NCBI RefSeq assembly: GCF_943193025.1 | Contig: NZ_CALPCQ010000014.1 | Coordinates: forward strand, 1 to 52,448 | Origin: Lactobacillus agrestimuris | Lineage (GTDB): Bacteria; Bacillota; Bacilli; Lactobacillales; Lactobacillaceae | Reading direction: 5' to 3' | DNA length: 52,448 bases | Part shown: positions 117 through 2,554 of the stretch, one piece after another | Position numbering within the stretch: the stretch's first letter is position 1 | How the letters are laid out: each line of letters starts with the position of its first letter | Notes under the pieces: generated by a model | The model's database searches: none | Told to the model about the DNA's origin: nothing | What the model saw: only the letters and a program-made list of their open reading frames with translations | Translations under genes and position numbers: made by a program

Positions 117-584
117 TTACTCTTCGGATAAAGCATCTTGGACTTCTTTAGTACGACAAACTAAGACATCACAATTAGCGGTTCTAGTAACGTATTCGGT
201 AATACTACCGATCAATAATCGTTCAACTGCATTTAAACCAGTTGCACCAACGATAATTAAATCAATATTATTCTTAGAAGGGAAGTCATGAGCGATAATT
301 GTTTTGGGTGAGCCAAATTCGATATCGTATTTAACATTTTCAATCCCAGCCTTCTTAGCACGGTCTACGTATTCTTCTAATCGCTTCTTAGCATCGTTAG
401 ATACTTGTTCAACCATAGCAGTATCAAAGCTAGATACATTTTGGAATGATCGAGTATCGACAACATGTAAGATGTCTAAAGTTGCATGGTTACGTTTTGC
501 AATTGCAGCAGCTTTACTGAAAGCTAAGTCCGCTTCTTTTGATCCATCGACTGAAACTTGAATATGTTGATATTGTGAAAGCAT
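117..584 (-). CDS. Universal stress protein, UspA family
   Basis: This 155-aa single-domain protein has the usual length for a one-domain Usp. It carries the ATP-binding signature G-2x-G-9x-G-S at residues 113-127 (G113, G116, G126, S127) near the C-terminus, and the N-terminal strand IQVSVDGSKEA is typical of the Rossmann-like alpha/beta fold. Usp proteins of this type bind ATP, act in the cytoplasm and help survival under stress, but the exact biochemical role is not established. The start has an AGAGGTG site about 8 nt upstream. It follows a 92-aa membrane protein gene and the 6S-like RNA on the same strand, which is the arrangement described for lacto-usp RNAs. A TGGTAAAAT extended -10 near 630-622 could give it its own promoter. 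No strong terminator separates it from the IS end. Confidence 0.93.
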   Translation of the reverse strand: MLSQYQHIQVSVDGSKEADLAFSKAAAIAKRNHATLDILHVVDTRSFQNVSSFDTAMVEQVSNDAKKRLEEYVDRAKKAGIENVKYDIEFGSPKTIIAHDFPSKNNIDLIIVGATGLNAVERLLIGSITEYVTRTANCDVLVCRTKEVQDALSEE

Positions 585-650
585 AATATAAGCACCTCTT
601 TCTGATCTCTACTCTTATTTTACCAAAAAAATTGAACTTCGTTATTAATT

Positions 651-929
651 TTAATTCTTTTGATTAATTAATAGACTAAAGATTAAAATTGTTAATGAAC
701 CCAAAATCAGCGTAACTAAGTTAAGATATGTATTCCCTAAAAATAGGATTAGGATCCCAATTACACTGTCTACAAGCAGGGCAATAGAAGTCCACTTAAA
801 GATTCCTGCCAACTTAGGATTACCACCTACATCATATATCAAAAAATGACCACCGCGTCGGTGCCATAAATACCAGGCGGTTAAGACTAAAATAATGATA
901 AAGATTGTCATTACTATTTTAATTAGCAT
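651..929 (-). CDS. Small membrane protein of unknown function upstream of usp
   Basis: This 92-aa hydrophobic protein has three likely membrane segments: about residues 3-22, 45-63 and 67-88. A basic WHRRGG stretch follows the first. I do not recognise the family. A GGGAG ribosome site lies about 8 nt before the ATG at 929. The gene sits between the 6S-like RNA (with its terminator at about 985-950) and usp, all on the minus strand. The published lacto-usp RNA motif is described as preceding an operon of a hypothetical gene and a usp gene, and this gene fills the hypothetical slot. Its expression would need read-through of the RNA terminator or a local promoter. A stress-linked membrane role is only a guess from context. 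Confidence 0.75.
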   Translation of the reverse strand: MLIKIVMTIFIIILVLTAWYLWHRRGGHFLIYDVGGNPKLAGIFKWTSIALLVDSVIGILILFLGNTYLNLVTLILGSLTILIFSLLINQKN

Positions 930-949
930 CTATTAAACTCCCTATGAAA

Positions 950-985
950 AAAGACGGTCAAGAAGGACCGCCTTTTTTTGATTTT
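950..985 (-). terminator. Terminator of the 6S-like RNA
   Basis: On the minus strand GGCGGTC and GACCGTC form a 7-bp stem with one G-U pair around CTTCTT, followed by TTTTTT. The A-run on the other side makes it usable in both directions. Confidence 0.8.
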
Positions 986-989
986 CTAA

Positions 990-1184
990 AGAAACCTGAG
1001 TTAATCAAACATAGCTAATGACGCTTGTTGAACCCGCAATGTTCAAATATTTAGTTGGTATCGCAGCGAATATGGATCCTGAGCAATGTCAGTATTCCGA
1101 TTCGGTAGTTATTTACCAACCACCACGTCTTCTAGTTTGATCGGTCAACTTTATACATTTGAGCTTGTCGATCAACTCAGATCA
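990..1184 (-). ncRNA. ssrS: 6S-like RNA (lacto-usp motif)
   Basis: No open frame explains this stretch, yet it has a strong promoter at one end and a terminator at the other. CTGAGTTGATC at 1180-1170 pairs with GATTAACTCAG at 1006-996 (11 bp, one G-U). This closes an RNA of about 190 nt, the closing-stem layout and length of 6S RNA. 6S RNA binds the housekeeping RNA polymerase holoenzyme by mimicking an open promoter. Two context facts support the call. The RNA lies directly downstream of rarA, and in Bacillus a 6S gene is near rarA (yrvN). It also precedes a hypothetical gene plus usp, which is the published setting of the lacto-usp motif, itself proposed to be a divergent 6S RNA. Exact ends are inferred. 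Confidence 0.8.
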
Positions 1185-1187
1185 CTT

Positions 1188-1219
1188 ATTATACTAAGTA
1201 AAAATACGCTAAATGTCAA
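1188..1219 (-). promoter_or_regulatory. Strong promoter of the 6S-like RNA
   Basis: A perfect -35 TTGACA lies at 1219-1214. The -10 is TAGTAT at 1196-1191 (17-bp spacer) or the perfect TATAAT at 1193-1188 (20-bp spacer). The start would be near 1184. It begins about 30 nt after the rarA stop on the same strand. Confidence 0.8.
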
Positions 1220-1246: not shown

Positions 1247-2554
1247 CTAGCGCTTATCTTTAAGGCCTTCTGCTTGCATTTTTCGTAAAATCTGGTACTG
1301 CTGTTTGAGACCTTTTTCAATTTTTGAATTACCTTTTGGATCAAAGTATTGACTTCCAACAAGATTATTTGGGAGGTATTGTTGAGCAATCCAATCCCCT
1401 TGGTAATCATGTGGGTAAAGATATTCGAGACCGTGTCCAAGTTTTTCAGCACCTTTATAGTGAGCATCTTTAAGGTTGTTTGGTATTGAACCAATCTTTT
1501 TAGTTCGAACATCAGAAAGAGCAGAGTCAATTGCAGAAATTGCACTGTTGCTTTTGGGAGAAAGTGCTAATTCTATAACTGCATTTGAAAGCGGAATTCT
1601 TGCTTCGGGAAAGCCTAGGGTTTGTGCTGCCTGAATTGCAATAAAAGCATGTTGAGCAGCTGCTGGATTAGCTAGGCCAATATCTTCATAAGCAATAACG
1701 GTTAATCGCCTGCAAATTGAAATTAGGTCACCAGATTCAACTAATCTAGCTAAATAGTGAAGAGCAGCATCAGTATCAGAACCCCTAATTGACTTTTGAA
1801 AAGCAGAGATTAAATCATAATGACCATCACCATCTGAATCGAAGTTTTGACTTTTCATTTGAATTGAATCGGCCATTTCTTTTTGAGTAATAACCATTGA
1901 TTCAGTATTTTTTCCAGCCTCAATTAATTCTTGCTTAGTAGATCTAACTGCCAGTTCTAGGCCGTTAAGAGTAGCTCTTAAATCCCCATTGCCTTTCTCT
2001 ATTAAAAGAGTTTTAGCAGCAGGAGATAATTCAGCATGATAACTTCCTAAGCCATTCACATCGTCATTTAAGGCTCGATCGATGGCTAGACTGGCATCTT
2101 CTTCTGATGGTGGTTTTAATTCAAAAATTTGACAACGTGATCTGATAGCAGGAGAAATTGAAATATATGGATTCTCAGTGGTAGCACCAATTAAAATAAT
2201 CTGACCTGATTCAAGAAGAGGCAAGAGAAAATCCTGCTTAGTTTTATCTAAACGGTGAATTTCATCTAAAAGTAAAATTACAGTTCCGCTCATTTTTCCT
2301 TCTTCAGCAACCTGTTGAAGGTCTTTTTTGCTATCAGTTGCAGCATTGAGTTTTCTGAAAGCATATTTAGTAGATCCAGCAATTGCACTTGCAATACTTG
2401 TTTTTCCAATTCCTGGAGGACCGTATAAAATCATTGAAGAAAGTAGCTTAGCTTCAACCATCCGCCGAATAATTTTTCCAGGGCCAATTAAGTGTTGCTG
2501 ACCAACAACTTCATCTAAATTTTTTGGCCGCATTCGATAAGCTAATGGTTTCAT
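1247..2554 (-). CDS. rarA: Replication-associated recombination protein RarA (MgsA/YrvN), AAA+ ATPase
   Basis: This 435-aa protein has the length and layout of RarA: an AAA+ domain with Walker A GPPGIGKT (residues 45-52), Walker B LLLDEIH (DE at 97-98), a sensor-like GATTENP segment, then the C-terminal tetramerisation region ending near the LGHGLEYLYPHDY motif typical of the family. RarA acts on stalled replication forks together with SSB and recombination proteins, at the nucleoid. The start overlaps the yueI stop by 4 nt (ATGA), so the two are co-transcribed and probably translationally coupled. The 6S-like RNA promoter lies just beyond its stop codon, with no separate terminator seen between them. 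Confidence 0.96.
   Translation of the reverse strand: MKPLAYRMRPKNLDEVVGQQHLIGPGKIIRRMVEAKLLSSMILYGPPGIGKTSIASAIAGSTKYAFRKLNAATDSKKDLQQVAEEGKMSGTVILLLDEIHRLDKTKQDFLLPLLESGQIILIGATTENPYISISPAIRSRCQIFELKPPSEEDASLAIDRALNDDVNGLGSYHAELSPAAKTLLIEKGNGDLRATLNGLELAVRSTKQELIEAGKNTESMVITQKEMADSIQMKSQNFDSDGDGHYDLISAFQKSIRGSDTDAALHYLARLVESGDLISICRRLTVIAYEDIGLANPAAAQHAFIAIQAAQTLGFPEARIPLSNAVIELALSPKSNSAISAIDSALSDVRTKKIGSIPNNLKDAHYKGAEKLGHGLEYLYPHDYQGDWIAQQYLPNNLVGSQYFDPKGNSKIEKGLKQQYQILRKMQAEGLKDKR

Follow-up and report, generated by a model that had tools for sequence, protein, structure and literature searches.

Between rarA and usp in the 52,448-nt contig of Lactobacillus agrestimuris analysed here (the window), a stretch of the minus strand matches the Rfam family Lacto-usp (RF01710), and the question is whether this motif is the 6S RNA of these lactobacilli. 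It has been reported that the rod-like 6S RNA mimics an open promoter and holds the sigma-A polymerase, templates a short product RNA (pRNA) once nucleotides return, and then refolds and leaves (PMC8876501). A 6S RNA between rarA and uspA in LAB, with a pRNA motif and a terminator, was already published in 2021, and a 210-nt RNA of L. delbrueckii was recognised as 6S in the same work (Cataldo et al. 2021, PMC8414754). Neither lacto-usp nor RF01710 is mentioned in the text of that paper. An open-literature search for these two terms, supplements lying outside it, returned only Weinberg et al. 2010 (PMC2864571), where the lacto-usp motif is listed.

The idea that lacto-usp is 6S is probably already known. 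The supplement of the Weinberg paper, or an encyclopaedia entry, is said to have proposed that lacto-usp may be 6S. What is added here is a demonstration, by sequence comparison, that RF01710 and RF00013 (6S / SsrS) look like one family. This would join two RNA families that are still separate in Rfam, and the genus Lactobacillus (gut, dairy) would gain an identified 6S RNA under the existing lacto-usp label, with its exact pRNAs predicted. It also draws attention to a small conserved membrane protein encoded between 6S and usp without a visible promoter. We consider it very likely that the gene on the minus strand (1219-947) is a homologue of 6S genes and that its RNA acts as 6S.

The RNA gene and its consensus structure

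The minus-strand order, read 5' to 3', is the end of rarA, a promoter, the core RNA, a terminator, an RBS with the 92-aa gene, and usp. This agrees with the first-pass annotation, which had put the RNA between rarA and usp and named no strand. The features are:

1247..2554, minus strand: rarA, the upstream neighbour (MgsA_C and AAA domains)
1191..1219, minus strand: sigma-A type promoter of the 6S/lacto-usp RNA, TTGACA (1219-1214), 17 nt, TAGTAT (1196-1191); 10 of 12 consensus matches
991..1184, minus strand: 6S RNA core (lacto-usp RNA), 194 nt, 5' end placed from the promoter; alignment with 17 relatives and covariation of the apical arm
1171..1183, minus strand: closing stem, 5' strand; consensus structure, helix 1, 97.4% of cells paired
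993..1005, minus strand: closing stem, 3' strand; consensus structure, helix 1
1126..1150, minus strand: putative central bubble, 5' part, limits set by eye; it contains the pRNA template AGUUGACCGAUC (1150-1139); template block almost invariant, same block in some Rfam 6S loci
1139..1152, plus strand: predicted pRNA 14-mer GAUCGGUCAACUUU; hand comparison with the published B. subtilis pRNA and the LAB motif
1052..1142, minus strand: match to Rfam Lacto-usp RF01710, covering the apical arm and the bases at which copying into pRNA would begin; 93.3 bits, E 2.6e-15
1028..1046, minus strand: predicted hairpin UUGAAC/GUUCAA within the 3' part of the bubble; 16 of 20 loci have six pairs of this kind
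947..978, minus strand: intrinsic terminator of the 6S/lacto-usp RNA, 13-pair hairpin and U-run; fold, relatives compared by eye
651..929, minus strand: gene for a small protein of 92 aa, judged a membrane protein by eye and outside any Pfam family; its start codon lies 17 nt past the terminator U-run
617..625, minus strand: extended -10 element TGGTAAAAT upstream of usp; TGnTARAAT in 21 of 21 lacto-usp loci
117..584, minus strand: usp, universal stress protein; PF00582, 116.8 bits

The consensus promoter claimed in the first-pass annotation was recovered at 1219-1191. A promoter with 10 or 11 of 12 matches lies at the same position in all 19 lacto-usp loci scored, its -35 hexamer being mostly TTGACA (TTGACT in two loci and TTTACA in one). 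The annotation had further described an 11-bp closing stem, an RNA of about 190 nt and a terminator, all within 990..1219. The stem exists and has 13 pairs in the consensus (1183-1171 with 1005-993) rather than 11; the length suits the core of 194 nt and not the transcript through the terminator, which would be about 238 nt; and the terminator, also real, sits outside that range at 978-947. A simple scan listed its hairpin for the opposite strand only, while the fold gives 13 pairs, and a terminator-like hairpin with a U-run is seen by eye at the same position in relatives. The folding energy of 1184-946 was better than that of 200 out of 200 shuffles (z -5.3), and the closed core and the terminator coexist side by side in the fold.

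In the Rfam scan of the window RF01710 was the sole match above a cut-off; membership requires more than 50 bits, and the motif occurs once in the genome. Matches to SQ2397, Thr_leader, STnc40, SraG and L20_leader near the RNA were rejected, with scores far under the cut-offs; for SQ2397, Thr_leader and STnc40 the printed alignments stop on the terminator hairpin. Many lacto-usp loci also carry a UUUCUUUAGAAAAU-like stretch between the closing stem and the terminator (980-994 of the window, minus strand), which may mark the site of 3' processing or belong to a promoter.

The consensus structure was derived from an alignment (A1) of 18 full-length sequences, namely the window, 13 of the 15 lacto-usp loci of other genomes of the family, and four named Lactobacillus loci. 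L084 and L086, too close to L085, and L127 were left out, and L004 was excluded because its rarA has no RNA behind it, the RNA of the same genome being L127. Loci were oriented by rarA before alignment, and L095 by the small gene. The consensus is made up of the closing stem with its 13 pairs, an apical arm that covaries, and seven pairs without any variation that join the template to the 3' side. Of the 771 cells of the named pairs, 97.9% are paired. Changes on both sides were found in 14 of 43 pairs, compared with 8.8 in shuffles, and the covariation score was 0.298 against 0.167 in shuffles and at most 0.062 in slid versions of the structure; the number of further pair types was not above chance (38 vs 36.2, reached by 102 of 500 shuffles). 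Within the closing stem one pair changed on both sides and eight on one side. The seven template pairs never vary and are thus uninformative for covariation. The known 6S rod has 160-200 nt with a closing stem, a central bubble and an apical arm; the RNA of the window has 194 nt, with the stem and the arm given by consensus and covariation, and the central bubble would be present by homology.

Single-sequence folds of the 18 RNAs concur on the closing stem and often diverge in the middle, where an open central bubble is not clearly visible. The minimum-energy fold of the window's RNA rearranges part of the apical arm. In these folds the pRNA template is mostly paired, with an unpaired probability of 0.07-0.47 over the 18 sequences and 0.3 in the window. 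A template predicted to be mostly paired in the free RNA, together with arms that have diverged beyond the reach of RF00013, would suit an RNA that descends from 6S and has changed its role, for example by losing the pRNA template function. This seems highly improbable to us, as few segments of the 18-sequence alignment are as conserved as the template block, which is consistent with continued use, and the six UUGAAC/GUUCAA-type pairs of the 3' bubble hairpin are kept in 16 of 20 loci (the other four have a different local hairpin). An RNA that still acts as 6S is the reading followed below.

Homology to accepted 6S RNAs and the pRNA template

The first-pass annotation had looked to a match with both Rfam models as support. 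RF01710 gave it; RF00013 gave no match in the window or in the whole genome even at E <= 10. The RF01710 model has only 90 positions, beginning at the pRNA-start bases inside the template and ending with the apical arm, so that the closing arm and the greater part of the template are left out. Because the family as modelled is only this apical part, cut inside the pRNA template, the likeness of lacto-usp to 6S was hidden, and Rfam separates the two. RF00013 probably fails here because both arms diverged in this genus; the arm sequences differ from those of the RF00013 RNAs. The miss was counted as a matter of model reach and not of family definition; homology was obtained with other models.

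Two covariance models were built for this comparison, R1 from 18 lacto-usp RNAs only and R2 from 14 RF00013 loci only (alignment A2). These 14 were taken from 30 RF00013 loci (L097-L126), the top scorers among the 106 genomes in which RF00013 matched. The E-values of both models are rough. Over 70 loci (381 kb) R1 gave 29 matches at E <= 10, and 23 of them are in register with Rfam 6S genes; the top 19 are all on RF00013 genes, and the best off-locus match has 15.4 bits. The matched genes belong to 18 of the 30 RF00013 loci, four named loci (L009, L014, L025 and L035) and Lysinibacillus (L038), some of the matched rows being identical or near-identical in sequence (L009/L114/L115). L038 is the 6S gene of Lysinibacillus composti, outside Lactobacillales, and its R1 match (E 0.35) is in register with its 87.5-bit RF00013 gene. 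R1 had no match at 12 of the 30 RF00013 loci and at three named RF00013 genes (L007, L008 and L011, whose RF00013 genes were unlisted under faster filters).

In the reverse direction R2 matched 15 of the 21 lacto-usp loci and had no match at the other 6. The 5' start was at most 2 bases from the expected one in all 15, with 6 matches full-length and 9 short at the end, and the 3 off-locus matches of R2 all ranked under these 15. The window's own RNA scored 14.7 bits with R2 over 1186-1005 (E 0.07 in the locus set and E 0.98 in the whole genome). R1 gave it 214.9 bits, but the window belongs to the training set of R1. With R1 leading to 6S loci and R2 to lacto-usp loci, the comparison argues for full-length homology of lacto-usp with accepted 6S RNAs and relates the window's RNA in both directions to RF00013, which includes B. 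subtilis 6S-1.

The pRNA template was compared at the sequence level with published motifs. Of 20 lacto-usp loci, 19 have a predicted pRNA that begins with GAUCGGUCAAC, and in L095 it begins with GACCGGUCAAC. Among the 30 RF00013 loci, 7 share the eleven bases of GAUCGGUCAAC, another 11 have GUUCGGUCAAC, and 12 fall outside the pRNA pattern used; the pRNA predicted for the 6S RNA of Loigolactobacillus is identical to that of the window. The pRNA of B. subtilis 6S-1 is GUUCGGUCAAAACUA (PMC12005410) and starts from C40 (PMC8876501); nine of its first 10 bases are like those predicted in the window and one differs. For LAB, the reported pRNA motif has GG at positions 5/6, AA at 9/10 and an adenine adjoining the start (PMC8414754), and by eye all three are found in the window. 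L125 (G103, genus g5) has an RF00013 match in which the usual template pattern is missing; it contains GATCCATATTC, which in lacto-usp RNAs is found in the apical arm.

By analogy with the family, the RNA of the window would bind the housekeeping sigma-A RNA polymerase as an open-promoter mimic. Synthesis of the pRNA would begin opposite C1139 and yield the predicted 14-mer. Copying into this short RNA would lead to refolding and to release of the RNA from the polymerase, and the level of the RNA would be expected to rise under poor growth conditions.

Distribution in the family and an intermediate genus

With strict filters, RF01710 was found in at least 16 and RF00013 in at least 106 of 301 genomes of the family, and both together in none. 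The two counts are lower bounds, as the strict RF00013 survey missed L137 and L138 (56-57 bits by direct search), and among the lacto-usp genomes the laxer whole-genome RF00013 search covered only that of the window. Of the 16 lacto-usp genomes, 15 are from the genus of the window, and among named species L. kalixensis (87%) and L. kitasatonis (83%) have the closest rarA genes.

When R1 was run over the 301 genomes (strict filters, E <= 0.1), it matched the 16 lacto-usp genomes and 12 others. At seven of these 12 places RF00013 also matches at E <= 10 (L135-L138 and L140-L142), in three of them above the cut-off, while the other five (L131-L134 and L139) have no RF00013 match and have usp downstream; altogether rarA is present on 9 and usp on 11 of the 12 stretches. 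Eight of the 12 genomes are of genus g15, in which R1 scores 26-45 bits and RF00013 matches 3 of 8 (21-29 bits, E 0.035-2.8). By these model scores genus g15 is intermediate between lacto-usp and 6S. In one g15 locus, L142, the RNA is followed at a distance of 1.4 kb by a relative of the membrane-protein gene, and on its 4.1-kb stretch no rarA or usp was found.

The genomic place is also common to both kinds of RNA. Of the 16 lacto-usp loci in the family survey, all have usp and 15 have rarA next to the RNA; the 30 RF00013 loci (the best of 106) all have both genes, with one usp inverted. The named loci L002, L003, L005 and L006 all have usp; they were fetched by rarA and so were not counted for rarA adjacency. 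In the LAB 6S described by Cataldo et al. (PMC8414754), rarA lies upstream and uspA downstream, as in the window, and the pRNA motif, the 3' bubble hairpin, the downstream terminator and the single copy per genome are likewise shared.

L095 and L127 have no rarA beside the RNA. On the stretches examined, the RNA, the membrane-protein gene and usp stand together there with rarA absent upstream, and in the second genome rarA (L004) is elsewhere, probably about 45 kb off on the same contig. In these two cases the RNA and the two genes behind it may have relocated together as one block.

The genome of the window (97.8% complete) holds one RF01710 match, one R1 match, at the window's locus, and no RF00013 match, so another clear 6S gene, which would have spoken against the first-pass proposal, was not found. 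In the whole-genome ranking of R2, C6:35205-35382 came first (17.3 bits, E 0.24) and the RNA of the window second, neither being significant. C6:35205-35382 was rejected as a 6S gene: no RF00013 match is listed there at E <= 10, and it lies at the starts of two divergent ORFs, by eye a transporter and a regulator. Support for equating lacto-usp with the 6S RNA of these lactobacilli thus comes from the reciprocal models, the intermediate genus, the common pRNA template, the place and the mutual exclusion of the two families. For the window itself the sequence evidence for a 6S gene is homology to Rfam 6S RNAs, template, promoter, closing stem, covarying apical arm, terminator and place.

The membrane-protein gene and usp behind the RNA

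The gene directly behind the terminator encodes a 92-aa protein without a Pfam or NCBIfam family, a relative of which is labelled DUF3784 domain-containing by one source. By tblastn (E 1e-3) relatives were found in 19 of 20 lacto-usp loci and few RF00013 loci; small proteins (about 90-100 aa) whose hydrophobic start is similar lie behind many RNAs of both kinds, including many other Lactobacillaceae loci. The available part of Cataldo et al. (PMC8414754) holds nothing on this small membrane protein or on a usp promoter. Between the 6S core and this gene no promoter stood clearly above single-base shuffles in 19 loci (lowest fraction 0.12). As the start codon is close behind the terminator and no promoter is visible between them, the mRNA of the membrane protein probably arises by read-through of the 6S terminator.

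The same layout could be read as that of a cis-regulatory 5' leader, with lacto-usp controlling a usp operon through terminator read-through. Besides the lack of a visible promoter before the membrane-protein gene, the conserved order would suit such a leader: all 21 loci have usp downstream, 20 of them also have a relative of the membrane-protein gene there (L127 by eye), and the start codon of the latter lies 56-72 nt past the core RNA in 16 of 20 loci (two others are called from an earlier in-frame start and two are uncalled). Set against this are the full-length homology to 6S with its pRNA template, the fold in which closed core and terminator stand side by side, the RNA-seq and terminators that Cataldo et al. 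take as those of a monocistronic 6S (PMC8414754), and an extended -10 element that usp has for itself in 21 of 21 loci. We give a leader very little probability and retain the identification as 6S.

This element, TGnTARAAT, lies 28-41 nt before the usp start as given by tblastn in all 21 lacto-usp loci, many of which are close relatives, and in none of 40 loci of RF00013 or intermediate type (of 42 such loci, 2 are without usp in the right direction). It was recognised via its conservation; at the -35 place there are just 2-4 of 6 matches, and a plain two-hexamer scan found no usp promoter above shuffles in 19 loci (fractions 0.19-1.00). A looser pattern also fits L113, and shuffles fit it in 4-16% per lacto-usp locus. 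It is likely that usp has its own promoter. Given this conserved element, usp need not depend on the RNA, and read-through control of usp by the RNA was judged unlikely. The first-pass annotation had put a stress operon directly behind the RNA; the gene order is as it described, and the element of usp's own speaks against co-transcription of usp.

A stress switch could also be imagined, in which usp, with an extended -10 promoter and almost no -35, is 6S-sensitive, the 6S gene with its strong -35 escapes, and the membrane protein, arising solely by leak-through of the 6S terminator, tracks 6S transcription in its level; we regard this as speculative and rather unlikely. Promoters with an extended -10 or a weak -35 have been reported to be 6S-sensitive in E. 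coli, while two genome-wide studies saw no such link (PMC2848244, PMC5982834), and these reports bear solely on that reading. At about the same place before usp, 21 of 40 other loci have AACGTANRAT, which suggests two distinct usp promoter elements.
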